DNA from: Lunularia cruciata
Taxonomy: Eukaryota; Streptophyta; Marchantiopsida; Lunulariales; Lunulariaceae
Assembly (NCBI GenBank): GCA_948567375.1
Contig: OX419762.1
Span: 38,917,034-38,981,033 of the forward strand
Direction of reading: 5' to 3'
DNA length: 64,000 bases
Under the pieces are notes generated by a model, which saw nothing but the letters and a program-made list of their open reading frames with translations, searched no databases and was not told the origin of the DNA. Position 1 is the stretch's first letter. Every line of letters starts with the position of its first letter. Below, piece by piece: positions 5,621 to 53,334 of this stretch. A program made the position numbers and the translations under genes.

Positions 5621-6311
5621 TGTGAGCCGGCTTGTGTCTCACTCAAGATGAGCCTTTGATGATTATTATGGTAGCACACAATGGGCTAAGAAGGCAAAGA
5701 ACACCAACTCTATCATACTCCTCCAAGGCTAACACTCCAAGACTCAAGACATTGCTCACTAAAGAACTCAATGAGAGAAAGATAGTTGCAAATGAAAGGA
5801 TGATGAGTACCTCCTCATCCCTTGTTTATATACTTGTGAAATAGTTATGCACTAAAGTTGCTTTTTACCATAGTAACTCAAGTTACTAGGCTAAAAGTCA
5901 AATAAAGTCAAAAGTATACAAGAATATCCATCTACATGGGCATATTCCATTAAGCATGTGATCTTATATTGACCCAACAACTAAGTCAAGGATTCCTTCA
6001 CATGGGCTATCCTTGGACTATAGAAGAATCCAAAAGAAAAAGGTTTGCGGAACCAAGAGTTCTCAACTCTTTTCTCAAAGCCAAACACCTAAGAATAATA
6101 CCAAGTCAACACACTAGAATCCAAAATAGTGATACTCATCTTTTCTATTTCCTCTAAAGTAAGGTCCCCACTGTCTTAGCTATGACTTACTTTAGCTAAT
6201 CATGACTAATATAGAACCATCATTTATTTTTATATAAATAATATCTCTCAAGTATTTGTTATACCAAGCTAAATATCATAATACCACACACATGCACAAA
6301 TGGGTGTTACA
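5621..6311 (-). repeat. gypsy-1 5' LTR (about 690 bp)
   Basis: On the minus strand it begins TGTAACACCCATTTGTGCAT and ends at GGCTCA or GGCTCACA, next to the primer site. Its boundaries are supported by two other copies (31812-32522 and 51165-51853) that start and stop at equivalent points. Minor uncertainty of about 2 bp remains at the left edge. Confidence 0.85.
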
Positions 6312-7030
6312 GGTCCACCCATGTGTGGCATTTTTGCCTGATAATGTTGAGGTGGAACCAATCCTTCACCTCTACCCAATGCCTCTACTATTTTATGCAC
6401 ACAAGCAATGGCTTCAAATACCATGCGAGGATTTTGAATCATGACTTCTTGGCAAATCTGCTCCTTCAACCTTCATTTGAAATTACCGAGAGTCTCTGTT
6501 GGACTCATGGTGACTTGTAGATCCATAAATGCATCCACATAATCTTGTATGTTATTCTTGTGTTTCAATCCCTATAGTTGGATCTGAGCCATCTGCATGA
6601 AATCTACCAACTAGAAATTGTTTAGCAATCCTTCTTGCATTGCTGTCCACATGACCTCCCTTCTCTTTGCCAACATGGATCGTTCCCAAGCATTGTACCA
6701 TGTGAGGGATTTATCAATCAAGTACCCACATGCAAACATGCATGTTGCATGCTTGGTGGTCTTTGTTGAAAATAATTGGAAATAAAGATTCATTCTCAAG
6801 ATCTAGTTCTTCACTACTCCCATTGTACACTACCCTTTGTAAGGCTTGATGTTGCAAGTCTTCTTCATCCGGAGTAGCAATGTGGCTTCATTGTTGACTA
6901 GGTTTGTAGGCAAGGGTGCCTCTCCAAGTACTTCAATCACACATACTGGGTTTTGAGATGACTCTTCTTCTTGCATTGCTTGATCATTCCTAAGGGTCTG
7001 CACTTGACTTTGTAATGCCTCCATGGTCAT
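6312..7030 (-). pseudogene. gypsy-2 gag remnant
   Basis: An N-terminal helical segment (MEALQSQVQTLRND, about 6985-7030) precedes YFQLFSTKTTKHATCMFACG and SLTWYNAWER (about 6680-6800). Next come MQEGLLNNF, the DYVDAFMDLQ stretch (about 6500-6560) and LKEQICQEVMIQNPRMVFEA (about 6400-6470). This order matches the Retrotrans_gag capsid fold. Stops occur near 6608 and 6575. The knuckle region would follow but is missing beyond 6312. Confidence 0.7.
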
Positions 7031-8164: not shown

Positions 8165-8477
8165 AGATTTCAAGCATATTTCTATTCCTACTCTTTTAGT
8201 AAAAGTCCCCTTTTGGTGATACCTCTTTCTGGTCTATTAAGTACATCATGTGTAACATCTTTCTAGATGTTACCAAACCAATTCTCACCTTTAAATCATA
8301 TGTCTAACTATTGGTTCTAAGGTTTTAAAGTCTATTTTGATTTCTTCCTTATTAGTAGAAGTACTCTTTTGGTGATACTTCTATATGATCTATTTAGTCC
8401 ATCATGTTTAAAATCATTTCAGATACTACCAAACCAAATTTCATATCTAGATCATATGGCTAGCTCTTGGTATTACA
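8165..8477. repeat. 156-bp diverged tandem duplication in LTR
   Basis: The phrase TTTTGGTGATAC recurs at 8211 and 8367, and the flanking sequence aligns throughout both units (for example CATCATGT, then TACCAAACCAA, then ATCATATG), with moderate divergence. Two units. Confidence 0.8.
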
Positions 8478-9081
8478 CTTTGGATCACTTTTTTGGACTA
8501 GAATTGAAACTTAAATTTTCCAAGTTTCATGGCAAAAATGGCTGCTAGTAATTGCTGAGATGGTCCCAAGATAGACAAGAAGAGAGGAAATATGGCTTGA
8601 TGGACTAAGTTAGATTGGAAATTAGTTTTGGGGAGAGAAGTTGGGGATACAAGAGGAATCATCTTCTATTGGAAGTGTAATTTGTAAGAAGAAACTGCAT
8701 GTGGTGCCCACATTTTTTGTTTTTTTTTAAATAGAGAAGAAGAAGTGTATAGAGAAGTCAGATTGCGCCTGTATGGCCAAAGAAGGCAAAGAAAAGAGTC
8801 TTCGAGATGAAACCCAAAGTAAAGTGACTTTGGGTCATAAGGCGAAGTACTCGGAAATGCCCTATCAGCATACAATCTGAAGTAAGGAGTCTTTGTATCG
8901 GGGGAGCTCAACCCAAGGTGAAGTCAGTCTAACAACCTTTTGTCGGGGCAAGAAATTCAAGAATGGACGTTCAAAACCGGCGGCCCATACGCGCACAGTA
9001 CGATTGACAGTGACGAGCGCATGCAAGAGGTGTGATTTCTTTGAGAAACTCGAATTGAAGAGAGACGAAGAAAGTGCAACT

Positions 9082-9091
9082 CTATAAAAAT
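9082..9091 (+). promoter_or_regulatory. TATA-like box of A1
   Basis: CTATAAAAAT followed by CGGGC. It is conserved in position and sequence in A2 (16601-16610) and, weaker, in A3 (CTATAAGAAT near 21918), always 20-30 bases before the conserved ATG. If it is the true TATA box, transcription would start almost at the ATG. Confidence 0.6.
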
Positions 9092-9109
9092 CGGGCTCGC
9101 AACAAAGCA

Positions 9110-11672
9110 ATGTCGAGCAATTTTCCTTTGCCGTTGAGAAGTCATCCTGTAGGTGATCATGGGAAGGGAAATAGAGTTGAAGACGCGCTAGTGTGTAAGG
9201 GAGAAGTTGGGAGAGTGAAACTGAGAGACAATGAGAAAGCAGGAGAGATGGGAGGAAGAAAGAAGAACTCCAAATTTGCAGTGAGGAATCATGCGATTTG
9301 GAGGTTAGACGTAATCGCAAGAATTGAAGTCATGAGCCGACTTTGGATTACGTTCTTGGCATGGAACTGGAATGTTAGTTTTCTAGGTTTCATGACTAAG
9401 ATCATCGAGAGCAAGTGTCTTGATGGCCCCGAGGAAGAGGGGAAGAGAGGAAATCCGGCTTGCTGGATAGAGTCAGATTGGAGATTAGTACTCGGAAAGG
9501 AAGCAAGCACAGAGCAGGGTACCACGTTCTTGCGGAAGGGAGAGATAGCCAAAGAAACCCAAGAAGTGACGGATGCATTCTCGTCAAAGCAGACAAAGAA
9601 TGGATACAAAGTAGAGAGCTATAAAGATCCTGTCAAGAAGGGGATTGTGAGTGCTCTAATGGCAATCTTGAAGCCGGAGAGAACAATGTATGTGAAACAC
9701 CAAGCGGTATTCTTTCACAAATTGTTTGCAAGAGAACCAATAAATTGGGCGAGGTGCTTCCATGGAAGGACGTGACAAATGGTGTGGAATTGGCGGGATA
9801 AGTCACCTCCACATTACATTGTGCCATTTGCAGCACACTTCTACCTCGGGTTGAATTTGCTGAACTCGGCGGAGCAGATGCAAATGGTGTCACATTTCCA
9901 TCCCGACTTAAGAAGAGAAGTTGATATAGAGGAGCAGCAATACATCCTTCAAATCCAAAGCACAGACGAGTACTACAAGAAGACGGGGAAGAACGTGGAG
10001 ATAGAAGCAAGTACTCCAAAATCAAAGAAGCAAAGTCGGCAGGCCAAAGCCAAAGACAAGACAAAACCTTGGAAGACCAAGAGAGGAAACTTAGGGCGAG
10101 GCATGGTGGTGATCTGAGTCAGAAGATGAAGACTCGGAAGGTGAGGCCGAGTGCAAGTCCGAAGACTCGGAACGCAAGGAGGAACCCGAGCTAACGCTAC
10201 AAAGTGGAGATACAAGTAGCAACAGCGATGAAGGTGGAGAAATGACATTGGTGCCAGCTACTGTAGAGGAGGAAGAAGAAGTGCAGGCAGAGATCGAGGC
10301 CGAGGACAACACGAAGTTGGAGGATGAGATACCCAAGGCTGAAGAGAAGAGATTGCAATTCAGAGGGGAGTTCGCTCAAGACACAAGGCGAAGTGTGAGG
10401 CAGGTCTGAGTAAAGTAAAAGAAGAAGTGAATGAAAGCTCAGGAAGTGAGGCGTTAGTTCCGATACGAAGACTGCAGAGACAAAGGCAAGTATCGAGTGA
10501 ACAAGAAGTGAGAAGGGAGATTGCTACGCAAGAGGAGGTAGTAGTGAGGGATGGAGTAGAGTACCTACGGGAGATCGTGTGTCCACTGTTGGTGAAATTG
10601 GAGCACAAGAAGAAGGAAATGCAATCAACTTGTCTAGAAGTGAAGACTGTTTTGCAGGTCTTATTGAGATTAGAAGAAGAGAACTCGGAGTTGAAGAAGA
10701 TCATAACCCGAGGTGAGGAGGAAGGTGAAGTACTGCAAGGAGAGGCAGTAGTGAAGACTCAGGTAATTGAAGACTTGAAGAGAGAAGTGATATATCGAGA
10801 GGAGCTTGTTAGGAAGAGTGACATAGCAAGGGAGAGACAAGTAGCGGAGTATGAGATTTTGAAGCAGCAGTTTGTTGATTCAAGAGTAGAACTTATCCAT
10901 GCTATGGTGAGGGTAGCAACAAAGGAACAAGAGCTCGATAGAGTCATGGAGAGTGTAGAAGAGAATAAGCAACTCTGGCAAAGGGAGTTAGCAACACACT
11001 ATAGGGAAGAAGAGAGGTTACAAGAGTTACTTTGTAATCAGGAGGAGAAGATTGTATAGAAGGAGAAGGAGAAAGAAACGGTGAAAGCAGAGTTGGTGAT
11101 GTACAAGGAGGATTGGCTTGCAGATCGAGAGCGAGAAAGAAAAATGTGATTGCAGCCATTGAAGGAGATTGTCCTCAGGATGAATGCGATGTTAAGTATA
11201 GAGGCCAATGTTTGAATTGAAAAAATGAGGCTGCACAAGTTGAAATTGTTGGTGCAGGAGACGAGGCAAAGACATGCAAAAAATACTAATTTGAACGCAC
11301 TGTTGATAAATCGCATGACTCGTGTAGATAGGAAGATATTAGAGGTAGAAGATAATATCGTGGTTGGATTAGACTTAGTAAAGTTGGAGAAAGATAAACA
11401 TTGGAAGGATGTTAGAGTTAAACCCAAAGTAAGAGAGATAGGAGTGCAGGTGTCTTCGGATTTGACATTTGACACTTTAGAGAAGAGTGGGTCGGGAGAT
11501 AGAGATTTAGAAGGCTTAATTATGATAGGAATTGCAGATCAGGAAGGAGAAGTGTTAGAATTAGTGGAGGAATTGGGAGTTGTGAAACCCGAGGACAGAG
11601 TAGTAGGAAGTAAAATTTACTTCGGGTTTGGGTTTGAAAGCTGATGACAAAGTAGACATCGGATCGGATTAG
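9110..11672 (+). pseudogene. A1 coiled-coil protein gene (broken)
   Basis: Unfamiliar protein, about 850 codons if unbroken. The ATG at 9110 was chosen because A2 (16629) and A3 (21946) have an ATG at the same place before a similar ...NFPLPLRSHP start. The N-terminal half contains FLAWNWNVSFLGFM, then WIESDWRLVLG (about 9464), EPINWARCFHGRT (about 9733-9772) and VPFAAHFYLGLNLL (about 9820-9865). A Lys/Ser and acidic linker follows (about 10000-10400), then about 250 residues of heptad-rich coiled coil (10560-11060), and a C-terminal domain with DRKILEVEDNI ending in VDIGSD. Breaks: TGA at 9773 (CGA in origin), a frameshift near 10115, TAG near 11057, and others. No enzymatic motif and no Gag zinc knuckle is seen. 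A Gag-like structural role is only a guess. Confidence 0.75.
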
Positions 11673-12465
11673 TAACAATTTTGAGATTTGAAGAAGCAGA
11701 TATGAAGAGGTGCATTGTCATTTTGGATCTGCAGGTTAGAAGAGTTGTTGTAGAACGGTATAGTTGTTAGAATTGTCTATTTGTTCACTACTTAAGAGTG
11801 GCATTCGCAGTCAAATGTTGTTTAGTGCTCATAATTTTGAGAATAGATAAAGCAAAGTGCTGTGAAGTAGTGCTCGTCGCTTAAGCTTGATTCCAAGTAT
11901 CAACGTTGTACTTGTGTTTGTGAGTATGTGTAGAAATTTGAAGTGCAAGTCAGTGTGCTTGTTGGATGTTGGATTCCACGGCCTTGATCTTCATTTTGTG
12001 TGTTTGATCATGAGTGAAGTGCAATCAAAGCAATGCCTTGACAGATCTGAGAGGAATTGTAGTGTTGGTAGTATTTTGCATTTGTGAGTGCAGTGCTGTG
12101 TTGATGTGAAGCAATTTTGATCAAGGAAGTTGTGCCTTCATTGGAGGGGTGGAACAAAATTCTGAGGCAAAGTCGTTTTGTAGTGAAGTGCCATTTTTGG
12201 GAGAGCCTGAATCATCACAATCCAGATTGTTTGGAAAGAATTGAAGGAGTTGTGATTAAGGAGTGAATATTCATGACAAGACTGCAAGTCAGTGCTTGTT
12301 ACTCTCTTTTGGGTGTGGTTTCTACTTGAGAGATTAAAGACGCAACCAAGAAGAACTACATTGCTATTGTTTACTTTGTATTTGGACATTTCTGACTTGT
12401 ATCTCTGCGGGAATGAACTTTACTTACCCGATTACCGCAAAAGTGATATTTGCCAAGTTATCACA
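11673..12465 (+). other. A1 3' tail with U5-like end
   Basis: Non-coding tail conserved in A-old, A1, A2 and A3. It contains a short hairpin, CTCTC near 12302 pairing with GAGAG near 12328 across TTTTGGGTGTGGTTTCTACT. It then has ATCTCTGCGGGAATGAAC (about 12400-12417), resembling the motif close to the 3' end of many plant gypsy LTRs, and a terminal AAAGTGATATTTGCC. B1 and B2 end in recognisably similar sequence. Confidence 0.7.
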
Positions 12466-12504
12466 CTGTAGAGGTGAGGAATTCCTTCAATGCTCCTAGC
12501 ACTT

Positions 12505-14613
12505 AGAACAAGTACAAGGTTGATAGTTATAGAGACCCAACAAGGCAAAGTATTGTCAAGGATTTGATGGTGATGTTTAAGTGAGAGCAAACCACCTATA
12601 TAACAAAGAAGCATGTGATATTCTTTGACCAAATGTTTGTAAGAGAGAAGGTGAATTAGTCAAAGTGCTTGCATTAGAGAATGGGGCAAATGATTGGGAA
12701 TTGGAGAGTGGACTTGCCACCCTACTTGTTTGTGCCATTTGCAACCCACTTCTATTGAGGCTTGAACATGCTTAGCTTGGAGGAGAAGGAAAAAATGGTG
12801 TAACACTTCCACCCCAATCTATGTCAAGGTGTAGTGCGGATGAGCAATATTATTTAAGGTAGATCCAAGATGGTTCAGAACACTTTGTCAAGATGGAGCA
12901 AGAGAAGAAAGTGGTGGTGAGTATCTTGAGGCCAAGGAAATGGGGTAGACCCAAGGAGGTAATATCGCCATGAGAGACTAGGAGACTGAACCCAAAGTGA
13001 GAAATGGCGGTAGTGGACCTATTGTTAGGTGCAAACTCTGAAGGAGATGTTGATTCTAAGTACAAAGACTCAAAAGAAGAGGAAGGAGAGCTCATGTTGT
13101 AGAGTAAGTAGTCGAGCAGTGAGAGTGAGGGAGATCTGAAGTCCAACAGTTGGTTGAAGAAGGAGGGCTGAGGAAGATGATCAGGAGTTCCATGCGTAGA
13201 TTGCATGCATGGAAGGAGGAGATAGCCAATACTTGGAGTTGCCCTAGGTGGATAGTCCAAAGGGAAGAGAAGAGGAGCCAATACTGGTGTTTCAAAGAGG
13301 AGTGAGATCTGTAGCTCGCAATTGTAGGGACGAGCAGAGCCAAGGAAGAAGAAGAAAGCTTGGAGGGAATCAATTTGAAGATATGAAGATTGAGACTTTG
13401 GAGTACGGCATCAATAGAAGAATTTCCTACCAAAGCCGAAGATAGAGAAGAGGACGTATAAGAGTACAGTAGAGTAAATTATCTGTCAAAGATTGTGTGT
13501 CTGCTACTGTTGGAGTTGTAGAAGATGAGGAAGGAGATACAACAAGATCATTCCGAAGTCAAGGATGAGTTGCAAGTAGTGAGGTACCTGATCACAAGAG
13601 TCTTTTAGTTGAAGGAGAAGTTAACCAAAGGAGAGGATGAAACAGAAGTACGTTGGGGTGGATGCGGTACTTTGGAGGGAGAGTTTTGAGAATCTACAAG
13701 AGAATTTTGTGAAGTGTGGTGGTGAACTTGAACAAGAAGCTAAAGAATTGCAGAACCAAAAAGCAACATGCAAGATGTTGAAGAAAGAATTTGATGAAGT
13801 GCAACTCGATGCAATGCATTCAAAAGCCATTAAAGTGGTAAGGGAGCAAGAGTTGGAGAAGCTAAGATTGGTTGCAGTGGAGAAGGATCGGGCCTGGCAA
13901 AGTGACCTATCAATAGAGACCAGGAAGAAGAAATTTTGAGAGGTTTGATAAGGAATGTAGAGGCTTAACTTATTCACTATGCAAAAGAAAAGGAAGCATT
14001 GAAGGTAGAGTTTGAAGAAGAGTTGAAGATGTACCAAAATGAATTGGAATCAAAGAAGAATCAGGAGGATTTACTTCTTGAGAAGCCATTGGTATCAGTA
14101 GGAGAGATCATTGTGAGGATGAAGGCAATGCTAAGTACTAAAGCCAAGGTGAAGTTGGAGGAATCAAGATTGCATGAGTTGAAGTTGCTTGTGCAGGAGA
14201 CTAGAAAGTGGAAGGTGAAGGATACCAACATGAGAAAATTTTGGGTTTTCCTGAGAGAGAGAGTAGATAGGAAGAGGATAGAAGTAAGAGACAATGGGAG
14301 TCTTAGATTAGATTTAGTTAGATCAGAATTAGATGAAGTTTGGAGTAGTGCAAAGGAAATCAGATGCAAAGTAGTTGAAGTAGGAGTGTACGTGACTTTG
14401 GGGGAATTACCAGAGTTCACTTAAGCAATCACAACAGAGAAGGAGAATGTAGTTAAGGGTAGGTGTAGGAGAAAACCAATATCAATATAGACCAAAGAAT
14501 TATTAGGTGTAGGAGAAAATGTAAATGTTGTAGATAGATCTAAAATGCAAGAGGCGCTTGAAGATACATCGGGTGTAGAAGCCAACATCAATGTAGACAT
14601 TGGTTTGGATTAG
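12505..14613 (+). pseudogene. A-old coiled-coil protein gene remnant
   Basis: Continues the family-A frame after the A1 insertion. Decayed forms of the KVDSYRDP and KHVIFFDQMF segments occur near 12510-12640, and FVPFATHFY near 12730. Coiled-coil stretches remain open at 13637-13939 (KQEAKELQNQKATCKMLKKE type) and 13999-14424, which keeps LHELKLLVQETRK and the DRKRIEVRDN block. The frame ends in VDIGLD at 14596-14613. Many stops and indels make it clearly older than the A1-A3 copies. Confidence 0.7.
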
Positions 14614-15402
14614 TAATACCAATTTTGAAATTTGAAGAGGTAGATATGAACAACTGGAGTGACACTTCAAATCTACAAATTTCTAAGTAGTGGTTGGAGC
14701 GGTTTAGGTAGTTTAAATAACTATTGAATGTGCTGCCTATTTAAAGGAGGCATTTGCAATGTATTATTATTTAGTATTCATGTTTTTGAAGTTGAGTAAA
14801 GCAAAGTGCTATAACTCAATGCTCATCATTTTAGCTTAATTTTGAGTATCAATGTTATGTGTGTGATTGTGAGTGTTTGGAGAAGTTTGAATTACAATCA
14901 ATGAGTGTTAGATGTTGGGTTTTGCAAAGATGATGTTCATTTTGTGTGTCTGATCTTGAGTGGAGTGCAATTAAGGCAACGCCTTGACAAATTTGTGAGG
15001 AATTGTATTGTTGGTAGTATTCTTGAATTGTGCTCACACTGCACGATTGCAAAGCAACTTTGATTGAGGGAGTTGTGCCTTGAGTGGATGGGTGGAAAAA
15101 AATTATAAAATAAATTTTTCTCATGGTGAAGTAGCCTTCTTTGGGAGAACTAAATCATCACAATATATATCAATTTGGAAAGGATTTGAAGAATCATGAT
15201 TGTGGGTGTTATTTATTTGTGACAAGACTGCAAATTGAGCAATTGTTACTCTCTTTTTGGTGGCATTTCTACCTAAAGACATAACCAAGAAGAACTACTT
15301 TGTGTCATTTTACTTCATATTTGACCATTTTTTATCAGTATCTTTGTGGGAAGAAAATTACTTATTGATTACCACAAAAGTTATACTTGTTGGGTTCTCA
15401 CA

Positions 15403-16236
15403 ACATCCTTCAATATCATCCTTGATGTAAAAGTAGGATGTAGTGGAGGTTTCATGAGCATGCTATTGTGTGTATGGTAAGGGGAAATTTGATCTATTGT
15501 AGGTAGCATTGCTAAAGTTAGGGGATTTTGTGCATGGAGTCTAAGCAAGGGTCAAGATCTATCAAGGAAGTAGGAATAGTAAGAACATGTTGTGGTTCTA
15601 GGGATATGAGAAAGAATCTAGTTAGGGGATCAAGAGAAATGCATTTTTGCATTGCAAGATAGCTCATTTTGACTTCCGTAATGAAGAGGCAATTAGCAAT
15701 GTTCTCTATGACATCTTCATTACTATTATTGTGAGCTAGACTGCACATATCATTGTTAAAGCTTGGTTTTCCCTCTTGGTCTGAGCTTGATAGTGATGCT
15801 ATTAGGTATATTGGGATTGTCAAATGTTCAGATTCTTTTCCAAGTGTAGCTTCCTTCTCTAGCAAGAGGTGATGGCATCAACCTCAACCAACCATAGGAT
15901 GCCAATCACAAGGTGAATTGTGCCAAGGTGGGTGTATCCATGATCAACTAAGAAGGTTGGTTTGCCAATGAGTATGGGGACCTTTGATAACAATCCAAGG
16001 AAGAAATGCCATCTCTCATCTTCCATTCAAAGAAAATTAGTAGTCTTAGTCACTCCTAAAAGTTCCAATGTCTCCATGATTCCCTTGGTCATTATATTGA
16101 CTAAAGACCTCAAGTCTTTGTGATAGTTTGGAATGATATTGCCTCAATTGTTACGAGAATATTGAGATCATGGACTAAGGTATATAATACTTGGAGATTT
16201 GGTGACCAGATATCTTTAAAAGTAGCGTGGAGGCTT
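15403..16236 (-). other. unclassified repeat remnant (gypsy-4), left part
   Basis: Follows the end of A-old. The minus strand holds a 115-residue open frame (15518-15865) and further coding-like pieces (KVPILIGKPTFLVDHGY near 15930-15980), but no domain I can name with confidence. The A2 insertion interrupts it, and the flanks share GGCTT. It may be part of the same element as 19725-20474. Confidence 0.35.
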
Positions 16237-16600
16237 TGTGGTACCCACTTTTTTGTTTTTTTTGGAATTTGGAAGAAGAAGTGTATAGGGAAGTCAAATT
16301 GTGTCTATATGGCCAAAGAAGGCAAAGAAAAGTGTCCTCGGGATGAAACCCAAGGTAAAGCAAGGTAATTGGAATTACCTTGTCAGCAAACAACCCAAGG
16401 TAAGGAGTCTTCGTATCGGGGGTGCTCAACCCGAGGCAAGGACAATGTAACAACTTTCCTTTGGGGTGAGACATTCAAGAAGGGACCGTTCAAAAACGGC
16501 GGTCATATGCGTGATGGACACTTGATAGTGACAAGAGCATGCAAGAGGTCTGATTTCTTGGTAGAAACTTGAAGTGAAGAAAGATGAAGAAGGTGCGACT

Positions 16601-16610
16601 CTATAAAAAT
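16601..16610 (+). promoter_or_regulatory. TATA-like box of A2
   Basis: CTATAAAAAT followed by CGGGC, identical to A1, 18 bases before the conserved ATG at 16629. Confidence 0.6.
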
Positions 16611-16628
16611 CGGGCTAAAGACGAAGTG

Positions 16629-18930
16629 ATGACGAGCAATTTTCCCTTGCCGTTAAGAAGTCATCCTGCAAGAGATCGTGGGAAGGGAAGTAGAGTTGAA
16701 GATGCAATGGTGTGTAGAGAGGAATTCAAGAGAGTTAATCCAAGAATCAATAGGAAGAACAGTCCCCAGCCCAGAGTAGAAGAGAGAAAGATGGGAGGAG
16801 GGAAGAAGAATTCTGAATTCGCAATGAGAAATCATGCGATTTGGAGGTTAGATGTGATCACAAGAATTGAAGTCTTGAGCAGGCTTCGGATCACATTCTT
16901 GGCATGGAACTGGAATGTTAGCTTTCTAGGGTTCATGACTGAGATCATCAAGAGAAAATGTCTCAATGGCCCCAAGGAAGAAGGGAAGAGAGGTAATCCG
17001 GCTCATTGGATAGAGTCGGATTGGAGTTTAGTACTCGGAAGAGAAGCAGGCGTGGAGCATGGTGCCATGTTCTTGGGAAAGGGTGAAGTAGCAGAAGAAA
17101 CCCAGGAGGTGAGAGATGCTTTCTCTTTCAAGCAAACAAAGAATAGTTACAAAGTAGAGAGCTATAAGGATCTTGTCAAGAGAAGAATCATGAGTGCTCT
17201 AATGGCGATCTTGAAGCCAGAGAGAACGACTTATGTGATGAAGCACCAAGCGGTGTTCTTCCATAAGATGTTTGCAGGAGAGCCGATTAACTGGGCAAAG
17301 TGTTTTCATGGGAGAACAAGATAGATGGTATGGAATTTGTGGGTTAAGTCGCCTCCACATTACATTGTGCCATTTGCAGCTCATTTCTATCTTGGGCTGA
17401 ACTTGCTCAATGCGGCAGAGCGCAATAGGATGGTGTCGCATTTAAATCCCGACTTAAGAAGAGATGTTGACGCGGAGGAGCAGCAATACATTCTTCAGAT
17501 CAGGAGCAGTGATGAGTATTGCGCGCAGACGGGGAAGAGTGTGCAGTTGGAAGTGAGTACTCCGAAGTCGAAGAAGAGGAGTCAACAAGGAGAAGGAGAA
17601 AACATCGAGAAAGTAAGACCTTGGATGGCTAGAATGGTAAAGTGTGGAGTTGGGCCAAGTAAGGTAAGAGAAGAGGAGGATGAAAGTTTGGGGAGCAAAG
17701 CATCCATTCCTATAAGGCGACTGCGGTTTAGAAGGTGAGTGTTGAGTGAGGAAGAGGTGAAGAAGGAGATCACTCCGCAAGTCAAGGTAACTCCAAGTGA
17801 AGGAGTGGAGTACTTGCGGGAGGTTATGTGCCCATTATTAGTAAAGTTAGAGCACAAGAAGAAGGAGATGTAGTCGAAGTGTCCGGAGGGGAAGATTGTG
17901 TTGCAAGTGTTAGCAAGATTAGAAGAAGAGAACTTGGAGTTAAAGAAGAGTACAGTCCGAGGTGAGGAGGAAAGGGAAGTACTACAAGTAGATGCAGTAG
18001 TACAGAATCAAGTGATTGAGAACTTGAGAAGAGAAGCAAAGAATCGGGAGGAACTAATAAAGCAGAACGTCATAGCAAGGGAAAGACAAATAGCAGAGTA
18101 TGAAATCTTGAAGCAGCAGTTTGTTGATTTGAGACTAGAAATTATCCATGCTATGGCAAGAGTAGCAGAGAAAGAGCAAGAGCTCGATAGGGTGATGGAG
18201 AGTGTAGAGGAGAAGAAGCAGTTGTGGCAACAAGAGTTGACAGTGAGGCATAGAGAGGAAGAAAGGTTGAGAGAGTTACTTTGCAATCAAGAGGAAAAGA
18301 TTGTGCAGAAATAGAAGGAAAGGAAGCTATGAAAGCCAAGTTTAAAGCAAAATTGGCAATGTACATAGAAGATTGGCTTGCAGATCAAGAATGGGAGAGG
18401 AAGATGAGATTGGAGCCATTAAAGGAGATTGTGATCAAGATGAATACGATGCTAAGTACAGAGGCCAGTGTGCGCATTGTAGAGACAAGACTGCACGAGT
18501 TGAAGTTGTTGGTGCAAGAGACGAGGATGAGAAATGCGAAGGACAAAGACTTGAATGCCTTACTGATTAGTCTCAGAACTTGTGTAGATAGAAAGATATT
18601 GGAGGTAAAGACAATATCACAATCAGATTAGACTTAGTCAAATTAGAGATAGATAAACTTTGGAAGGATGTCAGAGCAAAACCCGAAGTAGATGAAATAG
18701 GAGTACAAATGTCTTCGGAGTTACCATGGGAGATATTAGAGAAGAGTGGGTTGGGGGATAAGGAGTTAGAAAGATTACCCACTAGTGGAATTTCAGATCG
18801 GGAAAGAGAACTGTTAGATTTGATAGAGGAATTAGGAGTTGTGAAACCAGAGGATAGAGTAGTAAGGAGTGAAGTTACTTCAGGATCGGGTTTGAAAGCC
18901 AAAGAAGAAGTAGACATCGGATCAAAGTAG
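16629..18930 (+). pseudogene. A2 coiled-coil protein gene (broken)
   Basis: Same protein as in A1, about 767 codons. The start ATG at 16629 begins MTSNFPLPLRSHP. It keeps the FLAWNWN, WIESDW, EPINWAKCFHGRTR and FAAHFYLGLNLL motifs. A TAG at 17322-17324 interrupts the frame directly after HGRTR, close to where A1 has a TGA. The acidic linker present in A1 and A3 is largely absent. The coiled coil is open at 17898-18314, and the C-terminus ends in VDIGSK with TAG at 18928-18930. Other breaks lie near 17737, 17871 and 18314. It is the least decayed of the three in its N-terminal half. Confidence 0.75.
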
Positions 18931-19724
18931 TAACAGTTTTGAGATAGGAAGAGGTAGATATGAAGAAGTGCATTGTCATTTTGGATTTGCAGGTTTGTAG
19001 AGTTGTTAAGAAATGGTATTTTTGTTAGAATTGTCGATTGCTTCACTATTTAAGAGTGACATTCATAGGAAAATGTTGTTCAGTGCTCATTATTACTGAG
19101 AATAGATAAAGAAAAGTATTGTGAAGCAGTGCTCGTCACTTGAGCTTGATTCTGAGTATCAACATTGTGATTGTGTTTGTGAGTGTGTGGAGAAATTCAA
19201 AGTGCAAGTCAATGTGTTTGTTGGATGTTGGATTCTGCATCCTTGATCTTCATTCTATGTGTTTGATCCTGAGTGAAGTACAATCAAAGCAATCCCTTGA
19301 TAGATCTAAGAGGAATTGTAGTGTTGGTTGTATTCTACATTTGTGAGTGCAACGTGAAGTTGATGTCAAGCAATTTTGATCAAGGAAGTTGTGCCTTCAG
19401 TGGAGGGGTAGAACACAATTCTAAGGCGAAGTCATTTTGCAATGAAGTGCCATTTTTGGGAGAGCTTGAATCATCACAATCAAGATTGTTTGGAAAGATT
19501 TGATGGAGTTGTGATTAAGAGGTGTTAATCTGTGACAAGACTGCGAGTTAGTGCTTGTTACTCTCTTTTGGGTGTGGTTTCTACCTGAGAGACTAAAGAT
19601 GCAACCAAGAAGAACTACATTTTTACTGTTTGACTTTGGTTTTGACCAATTCTAACTCATATCTCTGCGGGAACAAACTTTACTTACTTGGTTAAGCAAA
19701 AGTGATATTTGCCGGGTTGTCATA
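18931..19724 (+). other. A2 3' tail with U5-like end
   Basis: Colinear with the A1 tail. The hairpin (CTCTC near 19560, GAGAG near 19586) and ATCTCTGCGGGAACAAAC near 19660 are conserved. Confidence 0.7.
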
Positions 19725-20474
19725 GGCTTCCTAGAGCTAAGGTCTATGGGCGTCATTGAGTTAGAGGATATAGACTAGTTGGAGGTGTGGATGTCTGTTT
19801 GGGATTTTGTTGAAAGGAGTGCAAGGCTTGGGATGCCTTTCTGATCAGCAGTTTCTTGAAGCATATTATGGGTTGCCCCTTCAATAGAAAGTTCTCCAAT
19901 TTTCTTTGTTCCATAGCAATATACTTTGTAGAGCTATTTGAAAGTAATTGGGGCTTTCACATTACCCAAGTTGGTCATGATGTCACAATTATGTATGACA
20001 GAGGTAGGTGGTTGCCTTATGAGGGTGTCAAAAGTATGGATGGCTGCCTTGTGAGGATTTCAACCATAAGGATGACTGCCTTGTACATTTCCAAGATTGG
20101 CTGAGTAGTTTCTTCACCTATGGTCTCCTCGGCAGAAATTTCAGAGTAGCTCTTGAAGTTGGAAGCACTATCAAGATCAAGTACATCATACATGTAGGAA
20201 TACATAGAAGATATGGTTCTACAATAGTACTTCCACAAATGTGACATGCATCTCCAAAAATAGAAACATTTTCTACTCCAATGAAATGCACACTCTTGTT
20301 ACAACTAACATTGTTATGTGGGTCATTTGGAATAGGTGCTTGCAAAGTTTGGGTTATAAAGCTCATGTAATGTAGACATTGTGCCATAGTGTGAGTGATA
20401 GAGCAAAACATGCAATGGGCAAGCCTATTGGGACATTGATTTGATAGTGTATGTTGGGTCTCAATGGTCCCTAT
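19725..20474 (-). other. unclassified repeat remnant (gypsy-4), right part
   Basis: Lies between A2 and the gypsy-3 LTR. On the minus strand near 20375-20415 it encodes CMFCSITHTMAQC, a knuckle-like CCHC with one residue fewer than usual between the second Cys and His. Further Cys-containing sequence follows (CHICGST near 20225-20245). A gag remnant is plausible but the family is not established. The gypsy-3 insertion truncates it on the right. Confidence 0.4.
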
Positions 20475-20794
20475 TGTAAAAGACCAAGGAGAGAAATAAG
20501 ATAATGGAAAACCAAAGTGAAAGATCACATTGGGACTCTTGAATGAGGTAAACTCCAAATCCTTAGCATTAACTTGGGCTTTGGTATTTATAGGGAACAT
20601 ACAAGGCTCTTAAGAAGCTTTTCAAGATATTTCTTCCTAGAAATCACCTACTTGGTATACATGTTACCCACTACGGAAGGTTCCAAGAAGCTTCCTAGAT
20701 GCTTCTAAAACATTTCTATAATTCTTGGCTAATTTGGCCTATTTGCTGCTTTGTTAGTCTCAACTAACTTGAGTGTTAACTCCATATTGTTACA
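20475..20794 (-). repeat. gypsy-3 3' LTR (about 320 bp)
   Basis: On the minus strand it runs from TGTAACAATATGGAG, next to the polypurine tract, to CTCCTTGGTCTTTTACA. It is homologous to 29068-29290 over its inner half. Confidence 0.75.
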
Positions 20795-20808
20795 TATTCT
20801 CCCATTAC
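20795..20808 (-). promoter_or_regulatory. gypsy-3 polypurine tract
   Basis: The minus strand reads GTAATGGGAGAATA immediately before the LTR start TGTAACA. This is the usual position and composition of the plus-strand primer. Confidence 0.6.
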
Positions 20809-21531
20809 TTATTGGTGGATTTCTTGTTACCATGGAAGTTGCAACCTCTTGGATGGCCATTTGTGTATTGTGGAGATGAGAAAGAGGCTCCTAGATGGCA
20901 CCATGAAGGGTATATCCTTTCAAAAGAACTTTGTACTCAATTTTTTGTTGATGGCCACATTGAATGTTATGATGTGCAAGGATGCAATCAACTTCATACT
21001 CCTCATGATGGGAGGAGTAGGTTGGACACAAGTGGAAAATGAAGATGGATTAGAAACAAAGGGTTTCAACTTTGAGACATAAAAGACAAGGTGGATTTGC
21101 ATATGACTAAGCAAGTCAAGTCGATAAGCAACAAGAGAAATGATTTGGGTGACATCAAATGAACCTATCCAATTAGGAGTAAGTTTAAGAACTTGGGTAC
21201 TAATGGGAGGGGTAGGTTACTAAAAGAAAGCATGACCTTATCACCTAGTTGAAATGTGAGATCACTATGATGTTGATCTATGTATTGCTTTTGACAATTT
21301 TGAGCAACAAGGAGATGAGATTTTGCTTATTGTAGGGAGGGAGGTATTATGGACAAGAAGGGGGAAGTATGAGGAATGTGAGATAGTAAGGAGCAACAAG
21401 GGAATCTAGAACGAGTAAATCTTGGCCAAAATTAGGGAAGAAGGAAGAGAATCCAATACTTGCTTGGCAAACGCAACAACCACAAGGTATTTGTCCTAAA
21501 TAGTACAAGGAATGTTGATAAAGCATGAAGC
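20809..21531 (-). pseudogene. gypsy-3 integrase C-terminus and chromodomain-like tail
   Basis: The minus strand encodes QHHSDLTFQLGDKVML (about 21240-21290), then SLVAYRLDLL and IHLVFYVSKLKPF (about 21060-21130). This is the GPF/Y-type module at the end of chromovirus integrases (xxxVAYxLxLP...IHxVFHVSxLKPF). A shorter, weaker chromodomain-like segment follows to about 20850. In chromoviruses this tail guides integration toward particular chromatin. Stops and frame changes are present. The upstream half of integrase is at 25201-25720 beyond A3. Confidence 0.75.
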
Positions 21532-21945
21532 ATACCGGTGGTACCCACATTTTTTTTTCTTATTTTGGAAGAAGAATTGTATTGATGAAGTTGTATTGCA
21601 CTTGTATGACATCAAAAAGCAAACAATGATGTCTTTGGGTTGTAACCCAAGGAAAAGTGACTTTGTATCAGAAGATGAAGTACTCGGCTTGGCCCTGCCA
21701 GCATTCAACCTGAAGTAAGGAGACTTCGGTTTGGGAGTGCTCAACCCAAGGCAAGGATAGTGTAACAACTTTCCTTCGGGGTTGGACATTCAAGAAGGCA
21801 CCGCACACAAAAACAGCTGGCCTATGAGCAGGAGAAAATTGATAGTGATAGGAGCATGAAGGAGGTGTGATTTCTCGGTAGAAACTCAAAATGAAGAAAG
21901 ACCTAGGAAGCATGCCACTATAAGAATCGGGATAAAGATGCAGAG

Positions 21946-24403
21946 ATGATAAGTAAATTTCCATCACCATTAAGGAGTCGTCTTGAGGGAGATTGTGGGA
22001 AAGGAAGTGTAGTAAGAGACACGCTGGTGTGTCAAGAGGAAGATAGGAGTGTTAGTCCGGGAATCAGTCGGAAGAGTAGCCACCAACCCAAAGTAGAAGA
22101 GGGTAAGATGGGAGGTGGGAAGAACAACTCAGAATTTGCAGTGAGAAATCTTGTGCTTCAGAGATTAGATGTGATTGCAAGAATTGAAGTCTTGAGTAGG
22201 CTTTGGATCACATTCTTGGCATGGAACTGGAACCTTTGTTTTCTAGGTTTCATGACCAAGATTATCAAGAGCAAATATCTCAATGGACCTGAGGAAGAAG
22301 GTAAGAGAGGAAATCTAGCTCATTGGATAGAGTCAGATTGGAGAGAGGCGGGTGAGGAGCAGGGAGCCACATTCTTGGGGAAACGGGAAGTAGCTGAAGA
22401 AACCCAAGAAGTGAGAGACACTTTTTCTCCAAAGCGCACAAAGAATTGCCACAAAGTTGAGAGCTACAAGGACCCTATGAGGAGAGGCATCATAGGAGCA
22501 ATGATGGCTATCTTCAAGCTGGAGTGAACTACTTATGTGATGAAACATCAAGCGGTGTTCTTCCATAAGATGTTTGTAGGAGAGCCAATCATTTGGGCAA
22601 CGTGCTTTCATTAGTGTACAAGACAAATGGTGTGGAACTTGCGGGACAAGTCACCTCTGCATTACATTGTGCCATTTGCTGCCCACTTCTACTTGGGATT
22701 GAATTTGCTGAATGCAGTAGAGAGACACAAGATGGTGTTGCACTTCCATCCCGACTTGAGGAGAGAAGTTGATGTGGAGGAGCATCAATACATTTTGCAA
22801 ATTAGAAGCAATGACAAGTACTACGCACAAACAGGGTAGAGTGTGCAGTTGAAGGTGAATACTCCAAAGTCAAAGAAGAGGAGTCGACAAGGAGAAGAAG
22901 ACAAAGTAGCGGCAACAAGACCTTGGAAGACTAGGAAGGTAAACCCGAGGAAAGACCTGGTAGTAATTGCATTGTCAAGTGAAGAATCAAAAGGTAAAGC
23001 CAAGTATAAGTCAGAAGACTTGGAGAAGGAAGAAGAACTATAACTCATGTTGCAGAGTGGTGAAGCGAGCAGTGAGAGTGAAGATGGCATGGAGACAAAG
23101 CCGGTACTAGAGGAGGAGGAAGAAAAGCTGGAGATGGTAGAAGAATGGAACCAAAGACAAGAAGATGAAGTTCTAGAGACGGAGGAGAAGAGGGTTACCA
23201 TTCAAAGAGGAGTCCGTTCTAGAAGGAAGGAGATGTATGAGGCGGGACCAAGTAGAAGAAGAGGAGTGGAGAGTGGAAATTTGGGGAGCAAAGAATCCAT
23301 TCCCATAAGGCTACTGCAGCTGAGAAGAAGAGAGTCCAATGAAGAAGAAGAAAAGTAGGGGAAAAGCCCACAAGTCAAGGTAAAACCTAACGAAGCAGTA
23401 GAGTACCTGCAGGATGTTGTATGCTTGTTGTTAGTGAAGTTAGAGGAGAAGAAGAAAGAGATGTAGTTGCAATGTCCAAAGGTGACAACTGTGTTGCAGG
23501 TGTTGGCAAGATTAGAGAACTCGGAGTTGAAGGAGAGCAAGTAATAGAGAAGAATGTCATAGCGAGGGAAAGACAAATAGTTGAGTATGAAATCTTGAAA
23601 TTGTAGTTTGCTGATTCATGATTAGAAATCATCCATGCTATGGCAAGAGTAGTAGAGAAAGAGCAAGAGCTTGATAGAGTGATGGAGAATGTAGAAGAGA
23701 AGAAGTAGCTTTGGCAAAGAGAGTTGACAGTGAGATATAGAGAAGAAGAGAGATTGTGTGAGTTACTTTGTAATCTGGAAGAGAATATTGTTCAGAAAGA
23801 GAAGGAGATAGTGAAAGCCAAATTCAAAGCAGAGTTGGCAATGTAAAGGGGAGATTGGCTGGCGGATTGAGAATGTGAGAGAAGGATGAGACTCGCGCCA
23901 TTGAAGGAGATCATAACAAAGATGAATGCAATACTGAGTATAGAAGCCAGTTTGCAAATTGAGGAAACAAGATTGCACAAGTTGAAGTTGTTGGTGCAGG
24001 AGACAAGGAGTAGATCTGCAAAGGATAAAGATTTGAATTCATTATTCATCAGTCTCAGAGCTCGTGTAGATAGGAAGATATTGGAAGTGGAAGACAATAT
24101 CACAATCACATTAGATTTGGTTAAGTTAGAGATAGATAAACTTTGGAAAGATGTAAGAGAAAAGCCCAAAGTAGATGAGAGAGGAGTATAGATATCTTTG
24201 GAGTTACCATTGGAGATATTAGAGAAAAGTGGGTCAGGAGATAAAGAAGTAGAGGGTTAACTATGACACAAATGGTAGATCAGGAGGAAGAAGTGTTAGA
24301 ATTGGTAGAAGAATTAGTAGTTGTGAAACTTGAGGATAGAGTAGTATGTGAGGTTACTTCAGGTTTAGAAGCCAAAGAAAGAGTAGACATTGGATCGGAG
24401 TAG
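21946..24403 (+). pseudogene. A3 coiled-coil protein gene (broken)
   Basis: Same protein as in A1 and A2, starting MISKFPSPLRSR at 21946. FLAWNWNLCFLGFM, WIESDWRE, the SYKDPMRRGII segment and VPFAAHFYLGLNLL are present. The frame is broken by TGA at 22525, TAG at 22614 (within the CFH..RTRQ segment), TAG at 22838 and more. The linker contains basic KSKKRSRQ and acidic stretches (22850-23200), matching the part missing in A2. Coiled-coil pieces remain around 23400-23870, and the conserved C-terminus ends in VDIGSE with TAG at 24401-24403. The coil is more disrupted than in A1. Confidence 0.72.
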
Positions 24404-25200
24404 TAATAGTTTTGAGATATGAAGAGGCAGATATGAAGAGGTGCATTGTCATTTTGGATCTGCACATAGGAAGAGTTATTAGGAAATGGTATAGTTTTTA
24501 GTAATTGTCAAGTGCTCTACCTACTTAAAGGTGACATTTGTAGTATGTTTTTGTTTAGTATTCATTATTTCTAAGAATAGATAAATCAAAGTGCTGATTT
24601 TAGTGCTTGTCACTTGAGCTTGATTTTGAGTATCAATGCAGTGTTTGTGTTTGTGAGTGTGTGAAGAATTTTGAAGTGCAAATCAGTGTACTTGTTGGAT
24701 GTTAGATTCCGCAGCTTTGATCTTCATTTTTTGTGTTTGATCCTAAGTGAAGTGCAATCGGAGCAATGCCTTGACATATAGGAGACAAATTGTAGTGTTG
24801 GTAGTATTTTGCAGTTGTGAGTGCAATGTAGTGTTGATGTGAAGCAATTTTGACCAAGGAAGTTGTGCCTTCAGTGGAGGGATGGAACACAATTCCAAGG
24901 CAAAGTTGTTTTGCAATGAAGTGCCATTTTCAGGAGAATCTGAATCATCACAATCAAGATTGTTTGGAAAGATTTGATGAAGTTGTGATTATGGGTGACA
25001 AATTTTTGTGACAAGACTACGAGTCAATGTTTTTTACTCTCTTTTGGGTGTAGTTGCTACTTGATAGATTAAAGATGCAACCAAGAAGAACTACTTGTCA
25101 TTGATTGACTTTGTATTTGACCAATTCTAAATTGTATCTTTGCAAGAACAAACTTTACTTACCTAATTACCGCAAAAGTGATATTTTCTAAGTTGTCAAA
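24404..25200 (+). other. A3 3' tail with U5-like end
   Basis: Colinear with the tails of A1 and A2. The hairpin region at 25036-25069 and the terminal AAAAGTGATATTTTC are retained, with more substitutions. Confidence 0.65.
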
Positions 25201-25720
25201 ATACCCTCTAAGGTGCAATTTGCATGTTTTGTTTTTCTATCAGTTTGAGGATGATAGGCCATGGAAAAAGCAAGTTTGATGCTAAGTAGCTTGAAAAAAG
25301 CTTGCTAAAATTTACCAATGAATCAAGGATCATGGTTGGAAATGAGTACACAAGGTAGCCTATGATGCTTGAAGATATTATCAAAGTAGATCTAGGTCAA
25401 CATTGGAGTATCTACTATATCAAAGGGTGGTGCCAAAAAGATTTGTTAACTAAGCTTATCAATAAAAATCACAGTCATTGTATGACCTTGCTTTGTCCTT
25501 TTTAAGGATGTGATGAGATCTAAGCTCACTTGTTCCCATTGAGCAGATGGAATTGGAAATGGTTGGAGTAGTCTACTTGGTTTTTTGGTTGGTAGCTTTT
25601 TTGCATTGGCAATCACAAGATCAAACAAAGTATTGAAATTTATGTGCCATGTTTGCACACCACCATTTTTGTTGTAGAGTACTCAAGGTCTTGTTTACTC
25701 TTTTGTGTCTCCCAATTGGT
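25201..25720 (-). pseudogene. gypsy-3 integrase core
   Basis: The minus strand shows HxCxTC-type zinc-binding remains, then KPSRLLQPFPIP and WEQVSLDLITSL (about 25530-25590), which holds the first catalytic Asp. Next comes LPCVLISNHDP (about 25320-25350), where the usual catalytic SDRDP Asp is Asn, and then AYHPQTDRKTK, the region of the third catalytic residue. A stop follows DP. The substituted catalytic Asp alone would inactivate the enzyme. A3 interrupts the gene after TLEG. Confidence 0.82.
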
Positions 25721-25989: not shown

Positions 25990-27440
25990 GGAATTTTTTG
26001 AGGTTGTACTCAAGCTTGATGTTGAACAATTAATGTTGTTCCTCCCATCAATGATGTCAACTATTCATGTGCTCCGAATGTAACATTTGCAACCAAGGTT
26101 TGTGATTGGTTTACATGATCATTTTTTACCCCAAGAGATAATGTCTCCATACCTTGGTGGCATAAATCATTGGTAGTTGTTCTTGATCCTAAGTAAAATA
26201 ATTCTTTTTTGTGGTGTTTTTTCAACAAGACACAAAGGAAATGGGATGTACCCCATCTGGAAATTCTTGTTGCAACACCACTCGAATGGTAATTTAGAAG
26301 CATCAAAATCAATCACACAAGGTATTTGAGGAGCATATAATTGAAGAATAGGTTGTGATGACACTATATGCTTTAGTTTATTGAATTCTTATTTGTGCTT
26401 GGTGGTACATTAAAAGCTATTGAATGAGGCTTTTCCTAATAAATTAGTCAATAGTGCAGCTACATGAGGATATAAATGGATGAATTGTTGGTAAAAACTT
26501 ACCAGTCCATTAAATGATAGCACTTATGTGGCATCCTTTAGAGAAAGCCAATCAATAATGGCCTTGATTTTCTCCTTCTCCATCTTAATCCCCTTTGGTG
26601 AGACCTTATGACCCAAGAAGGTAAATTCTTATTGCCAAAAGGTACACTTTGACTTATTGTAGTAAAAATTCCATTGAGATAGTTGTCTTAGGACTTCTCA
26701 TATGTGATTCATCTATTATACCTCCATCTTGGTGTAGATTAAAATAGCATCCAATAACACCACCACGTACCAATCTAATAACCCATCCAATACTTCATGC
26801 ATCTGATTCATGAAGACCATTGCAGCATTAGTGAGCCTAAAAGGTAAAACTCTCCATTCAAAATGTCCATACCTTGTGCAAAAGGTAATCTTCTACACAA
26901 TCCTCCTTGTTAATTGGAATTTTCCAATAACCACTTTGAAGATCCAACTTGGAGAAACATTGTACTTTGCTCAATTGATCTAGCAAGTCATCAATTCGAG
27001 GTAAAGGATATGCATTCTTCAGAGTTTTTTTATTGAGGCCATGGTAGTCAATAAAACAGTTAAGTCCTCCATCTTTCTTTGGAACAAATAGTACCTATGT
27101 TCCCCAAGGAGATGTACTATATTGTATTAAATTCTTCTGCAACAACTCTATCAATGTTGTTTGAAGCTCTTCCAACTCCTTTAGTGAGAGCCAATAGAGT
27201 GCTCTACTCATTGGAGTGCTTCTTAGCAATAACTTGATCTTGAAGCACATACAACAATCAGAGGGTAATCCCTTTGACAAATCATCCAAAAAAACATTTT
27301 CAAACTCTTGACTTATCTTATCAACTATTTCTTGATAAGGCTTTTGGAAATCATCAGATTCTTTATGCCCAATCAACTTGATCACCACCACAAAATTAGA
27401 AGTATCTTTCTCCAAAGAATGCTTTATTGATAAACTTCCC
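25990..27440 (-). pseudogene. gypsy-3 reverse transcriptase and RNase H
   Basis: RT fingers and palm: SRALYWLSLKELEELQ (about 27140-27210), then [31 protein letters not shown] (about 27000-27060) and [17 protein letters not shown] (about 26930-26985), which carries the first catalytic Asp. The YxDD motif has decayed to LLDA (about 26740-26770). RNase H begins with CVIDFDASKL (about 26300). This is the expected chromovirus arrangement. The lost second Asp in YxDD and the in-frame stops make it non-functional. Confidence 0.88.
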
Positions 27441-37370: not shown

Positions 37371-37694
37371 TGTTAGAAAAACACAGTCCCTAGGACCTCT
37401 CACAATAGCACATCACAACCACCTTAAACAGAAATCAGAAGACTAAGAGGAAATAAAGTGGTTCACTCCTTGTCCCGGAAGCTACCTCCACGACTGAAAC
37501 AGGCTCACACCAGCCTTCTTGAAGCTTTATTTCTCATTGCACATATTTATACATTATAAACAGGTCCATCATTGTCCATCACTGCCATGCACTTGAACTT
37601 CTAGACAAGTGACTGCCACTTGAACTTCTAGACAAGTGACAAGCAATGGCCATCAGTTACATTTGCCTTTGCTCTTGACAAGTCAAACATAACA
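37371..37694 (-). repeat. copia-1 3' LTR (324 bp)
   Basis: TGTTATGTTTGAC...TTTTTCTAACA on the minus strand. A 36-bp segment (CACTTGAACTTCTAGACAAG and flank) occurs twice in tandem at about 37590-37660. The other LTR has it once. Confidence 0.93.
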
Positions 37695-37709
37695 ATCTCC
37701 ACCTTTTGC
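37695..37709 (-). promoter_or_regulatory. copia-1 polypurine tract
   Basis: The minus strand reads AGCAAAAGGTGGAGAT immediately before the 3' LTR, the expected plus-strand primer. Confidence 0.7.
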
Positions 37710-40080: not shown

Positions 40081-40086
40081 TTTCCA

Positions 40087-41751: not shown

Positions 41752-41767
41752 CTAACCTCTGATACCA
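41752..41767 (-). promoter_or_regulatory. copia-1 primer-binding site, tRNA-iMet
   Basis: The minus strand reads TGGTATCAGAGGTTAG two bases after the LTR end (TCTAACA). This is the standard iMet site, and a match of this length makes the LTR boundary certain. Confidence 0.93.
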
Positions 41768-41769
41768 AT

Positions 41770-48690: not shown

Positions 48691-48699
48691 TCTACAAGA

Positions 48700-53090: not shown

Positions 53091-53122
53091 CTCTACATGA
53101 CCAGATAATCTATGATAACAAT

Positions 53123-53294: not shown

Positions 53295-53334
<40 letters not shown>

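Follow-up and report, generated by a model that had tools for sequence, protein, structure and literature searches.

Evidence for a protein gene within the long terminal repeats of an abundant Ty3/gypsy retrotransposon of Lunularia cruciata

The nearest analogue of the element described here is found in a vertebrate retrovirus, mouse mammary tumour virus (MMTV), whose sag is a protein gene, of smaller size, lying inside the long terminal repeat (LTR). The present case is from a plant, and was met in a 64,000-nucleotide stretch of the Lunularia cruciata genome (C12:38917034-38981033 of assembly GCA_948567375.1, referred to below as the window) that holds several copies of a 3.5-3.8-kb repeat unit which we call A; 565.8 Mb of the assembly, in 74 contigs, was searched for further copies. 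We conclude with high confidence that an abundant Ty3/gypsy retrotransposon, carrying a protein gene of about 857 codons in its LTR, has left the A units behind as solo LTRs, a conclusion that concerns both the architecture of the element and its coding content.

Additional open reading frames (aORF or eORF) have been described in plant Ty3/gypsy elements such as Athila, where they are env-like, and Retand, Grande and Ogre, according to the portions of these papers available to us (PMC7264820, PMC11963269, PMC6317226). The available part of one of them reports that many members of the Athila/Tat (OTA) lineage have large LTRs and extra reading frames, that Ogre/Retand (Tat) elements are defined by an additional RNase H between the RNase H and integrase domains, and that Retrosat-2 belongs to the Tekay/Del chromoviruses (PMC6317226). 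For Retrosat2 of rice, the accessible text gives LTRs of more than 3.2 kb, an ORF0 upstream of gag-pol, and 429 solo as against 162 complete copies (PMC3485330). Coe1 of beet was considered as a precedent for an LTR-borne gene and rejected, as the part of its description that we have places the gene centrally, between two LTRs of 169 bp (PMC2426827). A literature search over titles and the beginnings of abstracts found no LTR-borne protein gene in any plant retrotransposon.

Three A units, and the two remnants of a fourth, are present in the window on the forward strand:

8700..12465 (+): unit A1, a solo LTR with the ends TGTGGTGCCCAC...GTTATCACA (flank reading, alignment, genome copies that end alike)
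8695..8699 (+): left target duplication of A1, CTGCA (flanks)
12466..12470 (+): right target duplication of A1, CTGTA, with one mismatch (flanks)
16237..19724 (+): unit A2, a solo LTR with an internal deletion (self-comparison, alignment, flanks)
16232-16236 and 19725-19729: target duplication of A2, GGCTT, exact
21537..25200 (+): unit A3, a solo LTR, the most diverged of A1-A3 (self-comparison, alignment, flanks)
21532-21536 and 25201-25205: target duplication of A3, ATACC, exact
~8470..8699 (+): left remnant of A4, an older A copy cut by A1 (empty-site alignment; protein match at 8478-8696)
12471..15402 (+): right remnant of A4 (self-comparison, alignment, protein match; LTR end GTTCTCACA at 15394-15402)

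A preliminary description, made from the letters of the window, had already placed A1, A2 and A3 at these positions, with these ends and with 5-bp duplications, and all of this was borne out, the A1 pair having one mismatch. In a self-comparison of the window the matched stretches of A1-A3 are 74-81% alike and none extends past the ends. The ends of A1 are further backed by an empty site, because joining its two flanks restores an uninterrupted A sequence, that of the older and truncated copy A4 which A1 has split. The window copies are each a single LTR with exact ends and a target duplication, with neither a primer-binding site (PBS) nor a polypurine tract (PPT) alongside, and this is the form of a solo LTR.

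The element from which such units derive was found through its integrase. A Ty3-type integrase frame near one unit was used as the genome query, and the best 149 of 33,624 candidates were scored; the 30 best-ranked of these loci were fetched, and in 28 of them an A head, aligned from base 1-4, lies about 400 bp past the integrase match, the remaining two having a head from base 55 (L039) or the LTR tail only (L059). The pol frame of locus L041 extends to about 15 bases before the LTR and contains, in order, the Pfam domains RVT_1, RT_RNaseH, H2C2 and rve; the closest match of pol in the PDB is Ty3 Gag-Pol of yeast (7q5b, E 2.1e-74). No chromodomain was found after the integrase, the L041 pol frame giving no Chromo match at E 1, a search that an exotic domain could escape, and no additional RNase H was found between the RNase H and the integrase, L041 and L036 each having a single RNase H region. 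A pair of units on C8 (L011/L012) was rejected as a full element, since pol pieces of two families lie between them in opposite directions, as in a complex nest; the integrase of this nest served only as a search probe.

A genome search with the LTR frame, in which the best 90 of 26,676 candidates were scored, gave 11 direct pairs spaced 9004-10233 bp, nine of them at 9940-9961 bp, and nine of the 11 hold a scored integrase hit between the LTRs. One element, C14:77472-90257, was read at both ends: it is 12.8 kb long with AGAGG on each side, is about 0.8 kb shorter in its internal part than expected from the usual spacing, and is bounded by LTRs of 3636 and 3782 bp that are 98.2% identical over 3427 bp and 99.1% identical over 214 bp. 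Directly before its 3' LTR is the PPT GAGGGAGGGGGTA, and seven bases past its 5' LTR is a PBS-like site, TGGCGCCGCTGCCGGGGA, whose reverse complement ends in CCA, as tRNAs do. In type, TGGCGCCG...GCCGGGGA, this putative PBS would fit the Athila/Tat (OTA) lineage. From the common spacing of 9.95 kb and an LTR of about 3.78 kb, the usual element would be about 13.7 kb long. Element types that have no pol between their LTRs, namely large retrotransposon derivatives (LARD) and terminal-repeat retrotransposons in miniature (TRIM), do not fit, as pol is found between these LTRs.

It had been proposed earlier that each unit is the solo LTR of a very large retroelement, and that two direct copies should occur 5-15 kb apart, with a PBS just inside the left one and gag-pol between them. 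The solo LTR part of this holds, and the element is large rather than giant; the direct pairs fall within the expected range at 9.0-10.2 kb, and a PBS-like site occupies the expected place in the C14 element, the one element read at both ends. What was found of the expected gag-pol is the reverse transcriptase-RNase H-integrase part, upstream of the unit. Of the contrary signs that had been named, neither a shorter LTR inside the unit, nor homology past its ends in the self-comparison, nor a transposase was seen.

The genome copies also fix the ends of the unit. A genome search with A1 DNA, in which the best 37 of 15,293 first-look candidates were scored, gave 27 units with both ends, A1 included (28 rows, with L016 dropped as a second head on the same tail). 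They end in TGTGGTGCCCAC...GGGTTGTCACA, with single changes among them, and when the ends are taken without any shift 22 of the 27 lie between 5-bp duplications, of which 15 are perfect and seven have one mismatch, as compared with about 0.4 of 27 expected by chance (16/1024 for each); the preliminary description had called for such a count. Four of the five units without a duplication adjoin, in our reading, parts of an element: L018 is followed by sequence resembling the start of the C14 internal region on its PBS side, a PPT stands in front of L019 and of L026, and L011 is preceded by a decayed one; the fifth is L022. Two places within C8:40331000-40407153 each carry an A-type integrase and a 3' LTR, share their downstream flank, and probably represent a segmental duplication. 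There were also 61 LTR-frame hits that were neither paired nor examined earlier, and when the top 20 by rank were read at their heads all 20 had a common first base, one of them reading TA in place of TG, and four followed a PPT.

These counts bear on the suggestion that the unit is not an LTR at all and is mobile in its own right, either as a DNA transposon or as a single-unit retroelement with integrase-type ends. In its favour, many copies, 22 of the 27, are single units flanked by 5-bp duplications, and a PPT is missing in front of 16 of the 20 unpaired young heads. However, an integrase and a PPT precede the unit and a PBS-like site follows it, a duplication encloses an element as a whole, the LTR frame occurs in 11 direct pairs with nine at one spacing, and no transposase domain is present in the unit. 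We therefore regard independent mobility as extremely improbable, and as the sole explanation it is refuted by the C14 element. A DNA-transposon origin was rejected in view of the PPT, the PBS-like site and the integrase; the unit has only short TGTG...CACA ends, and no transposase scored above the cut-off.

The protein gene is seen most clearly in the C14 element, where the 3' LTR is open from LTR base 353 to 2986 (878 codons, 857 of them counted from the initial ATG), and 862 codons are open in the 5' LTR. The gene is thus present twice in this full element, as had been predicted. An unbroken frame of 874-879 codons was reported in 10 of the 90 scored hits, the sequence itself having been read only for C14. 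The corresponding genes of the window units are decayed, and were located with the protein of the intact genome copy as query:

9110..11641 (+): decayed LTR gene of A1 (tblastn, residues 1-848 of 857, 67% identity)
16629..18924 (+): decayed LTR gene of A2 (four matched pieces)
21946..24254 (+): decayed LTR gene of A3 (two matched pieces)
12471..14610 (+): decayed LTR gene of A4 (pieces 12456-12833, 13324-13650 and 13924-14610, the first bases of the first piece overlapping the end of A1; 36-43% protein identity)

The pieces of A4 are still 36-49% identical to the LTR protein, and because they still match, the gene is older than A1-A3.

Selection on the frame was assessed by comparing the A1 subfamily (30 rows) with young LTRs (three rows from two elements). 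Fixed differences fall at codon positions 1, 2 and 3 in the numbers 61, 36 and 164, as against 205, 187 and 225 for single-copy changes, and the ratio of synonymous to non-synonymous changes is 155:106 among the former and 169:448 among the latter (Fisher p 8e-19). Measured against the C14 copy, the ratio of non-synonymous to synonymous divergence (Ka/Ks) over the whole frame is 0.136-0.195, with a median of 0.15, for all 29 genome units and three window units. The closest two relatives of that copy, L061 and the partner LTR within the C14 element, give 0.25 and 0.48. In a same-locus comparison of the LTR frame with pol, for which 72 of 81 pairs were kept and nine were left out because their LTR part was short, Ka/Ks was 0.12-0.25 (median 0.15) over the opening 246 codons of the LTR frame and 0.14-0.31 (median 0.19) in pol. 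Judged by these substitution patterns, the frame is under purifying selection between subfamilies, and the earlier proposal that a protein gene lies inside the LTR is upheld by a frame that is both open in the C14 LTRs and selectively conserved.

It could be argued that the frame is not a gene and is open simply because the purine-rich strand of the LTR is poor in stop codons; the strand is indeed strongly purine-skewed, and the C-terminal half of the predicted protein is rich in charged residues. Such a bias does not account for a third-position excess that is present in the fixed differences and absent from the single-copy changes, for the low Ka/Ks in all 32 whole-frame comparisons, or for the protein similarity that persists in A4. 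Nor is the frame generally open, as it is incomplete in every one of 27 units from the older A1 subfamily, the longest being 539 codons. A non-coding frame is in our view very improbable.

A number of observations nevertheless weigh against the explanation favoured here. The young side of the fixed-difference test has only three rows, two of which come from a single element as its LTR pair, and among the older rows are two copies of one probable segmental duplication. Whole-frame Ks values against the C14 copy are 0.64-1.43, which is near saturation for A2 and A3, and in the same-locus comparison the LTR frame has a median Ks of 0.73, about double the 0.32 found for pol, and therefore the two do not have one shared history. 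Since insertion, the frames of the two C14 LTRs have accumulated 17 synonymous and 32 non-synonymous changes, which is near-neutral. The LTR protein has no Pfam domain above the cut-off, its weak scores being taken as chance, and the structures predicted for three window fragments have a mean predicted local distance difference test (pLDDT) score of 37 and are unusable. The unbroken state of the six solo LTRs described below was taken from the search table, not from a reading of the frame. Finally, the genomic RNA could start at a second TATA-like site at LTR 3105, which would place the gene within U3. The near-neutral change of the C14 pair means that selection is seen on the replicating lineage and not on resident copies, and the simplest reading would be that the replicating lineage needs the LTR protein and that resident copies decay.

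The LTR has features of a putative transcription unit, some of which are recognizable in the window copies:

9080-9092 and 16599-16611 (+): TATA-like box CTCTATAAAAATC of A1 and of A2
21916-21928 (+): TATA-like box CACTATAAGAATC of A3
11545..12465 (+), left border approximate: slowly diverging LTR tail of A1, with the gene end and an R-U5-like region (divergence step at LTR ~2860)

The TATA-like box noted earlier about 0.4 kb into each unit was therefore found in A1, A2 and A3; the U5-like motif noted at the unit end is also present, in a tail of 0.92 kb over which the subfamilies have diverged little. In the genome copies the box is TATAAAAA at LTR 389-396, 27 bp before the first ATG, and is kept in 57 of 61 gap-free rows; at 93% kept it stands at the 98th percentile among the 8-mers of LTR positions 1-1085. 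Of the two candidate start codons, the one at 416 is conserved in 62 of 63 rows and the one at 554 in 58 of 63; the stop at 2987 is conserved in 34 of 35. Given a transcript start about 30 bp past the box, the second ATG, at 554, would be the likelier start, giving a protein of 811 residues.

An explanation that we consider quite possible, if not favoured, is that expression of the gene requires a complete element, which would supply it through its genomic RNA or through a spliced 3' subgenomic RNA, as for an accessory gene in the U3 of a retrovirus, and that solo LTRs are silent fossils. With the second TATA-like site, past the stop, as the start, the gene would belong to U3 and come last on the genomic RNA; the C14 LTRs have, in addition, changed near-neutrally since insertion. 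Yet the site at 3105 is at the 70th percentile in its stretch and is kept in 74%, and in this respect is inferior to the box before the gene.

The tail is distinguished by a step in divergence. Fixed differences between subfamilies amount to about 7-28% per alignment window up to LTR ~2860, whereas over the rest of the LTR they number 21 in 822 sites (2.6%); within the A1 subfamily, variation is level across this step, and the older copies in the window show a comparable, less sharp rise in similarity. Constraint on an R-U5-like tail and template switching between subfamilies during reverse transcription would both account for it. Frequent recombination within an LTR retrotransposon family has been published, to judge from the part of the paper available (PMC5668417), and the Ks gap between the LTR frame and pol likewise speaks for mosaic histories.

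The preliminary description had further suggested that the gene is left behind each time an element collapses to a solo LTR, and this was observed for unbroken copies. Six of the ten copies with unbroken frames, picked as having no known paired frame or integrase hit nearby, were read at their flanks, and all six are solo LTRs with exact duplications (AGGAG, TGGTT, GCTTT, ACTTT, CACTT and ATGGC). The other four are 3' LTRs: that of C14, where the element was read, C2:62832941 and C2:37667643, each recognized by its PPT, and C1:31685078, which is so classed by the integrase before it. C2:37667643 is also the first of two LTR frames on the minus strand that are direct and 2.9 kb apart, less than one LTR length, the second being C2:37670549. 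That six of ten unbroken frames reside in solo LTRs with exact duplications could be taken to mean that the host has co-opted these solo LTRs and now keeps the protein; the intact copies may, however, simply be young, and we consider co-option improbable.

Solo LTRs are generally regarded as non-coding relics, and at these six places what a retrotransposon has left after deletion is a protein frame, reported as unbroken, that follows a conserved promoter box. If such frames are expressed, the annotation of repeats changes and a route is provided by which element genes may become host genes. The solo LTRs also offer a natural control, in that they could reveal the action of an accessory protein without gag-pol.

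No homologue of the LTR protein was found at E 1 in two protein searches, one of which scored the best 7995 candidates sharing most words, a 473-residue frame had no match in the PDB, and viral contigs gave none either. With a structural model of low confidence and no recognized domain, the proposed role of the protein is read from its composition. In a simple scan most aromatic residues are N-terminal (about 55-290), a basic and then acidic linker follows (about 300-420), and heptad-like stretches are found at 536-629, 635-664 and 689-775 in the charged C-terminal half, so that we infer a nuclear, self-associating accessory factor. Weak matches to the LTR protein occur in the window at 53650-54023, 31061-31294 and 47694-47975, with 29-40% identity and E values from 1e-9 to 4e-5. 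The surroundings of the first two have a similar layout by eye, and the repeat families concerned are called 'B', family B being placed at 53300-57400. These relatives are possibly further LTR-borne genes.

In the mechanism that we propose, each LTR would be a self-contained gene with its TATA box at 389, an ATG at 416 or 554, a stop at 2987 and termination in the slowly diverging tail, and the protein could be produced from a 5' LTR, a 3' LTR or any intact solo LTR. The arrangement may have arisen when the PPT came to adjoin pol, such that an accessory gene downstream fell within U3 and was then copied into both LTRs at each reverse transcription; the A element would thus provide a testable case of a gene moving into an LTR through a shift of the PPT. 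The protein might form oligomers and, acting in trans within the nucleus, aid the element, perhaps by countering silencing or by directing targeting, a role that we advance tentatively. Equally speculative is the more general idea that the LTR is at once an element end and a complete gene cassette, intact solo LTRs acting as promoter-driven helper genes in trans after the loss of gag and pol, a design perhaps common, with distantly related proteins, to the families at 31.0, 47.7 and 53.7 kb of the window.

The remainder of the window is rich in other repeats. A unit at about 33790-36020, inserted by eye in a B copy, has a tail that matches the A LTR tail within 35665-35984 (local score 55.5, with 37.5 the best of 100 shuffles) and is perhaps a distant cousin of A; in the same shuffle test the B tails gave no match to the A LTR tail above the shuffles. 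Ty3/gypsy remnants at 2-1552 and 26102-26892 have 39% and 26-35% identity, respectively, to the A-element pol, and further gypsy-like frames continue to 3775. Two copia elements (37370-42003 and 49579-53292) are 86-91% alike in matched stretches; the second is interrupted by a 0.7-kb repeat and adjoined by overlapping direct repeats at 48697-49232. This repeat, of about 0.6-0.7 kb, occurs three times (5622-6312, 31812-32401 and 51164-51853), once within a copia element.

The A element can be compared with the systems described previously. With Retrosat2 it shares large LTRs, an extra reading frame and many solo LTRs, but in Retrosat2 the ORF0 precedes the gag-pol frame and no LTR-borne gene is mentioned in the text available; Retrosat-2 is moreover placed, in the part of the classification accessible to us, with the chromoviruses, whereas the A element has no chromodomain match. 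Large LTRs and an extra reading frame are common to it and to many Athila/Tat members, from which it differs in that no additional RNase H was found and its gene is inside the LTR. Like the elements with an aORF or eORF, as far as the available descriptions go, it carries an extra protein gene without known function, often 3' of pol in those elements; their extra frames are internal, either following pol and ahead of the 3' LTR or preceding gag, and that of the A element is within the LTR. In this respect it is closest to MMTV sag, which also lies within the LTR and hence in both LTRs of the provirus, although the A element is a plant Ty3/gypsy retrotransposon with a 3.8-kb LTR and a frame of about 857 codons, and the likeness is one of gene position.

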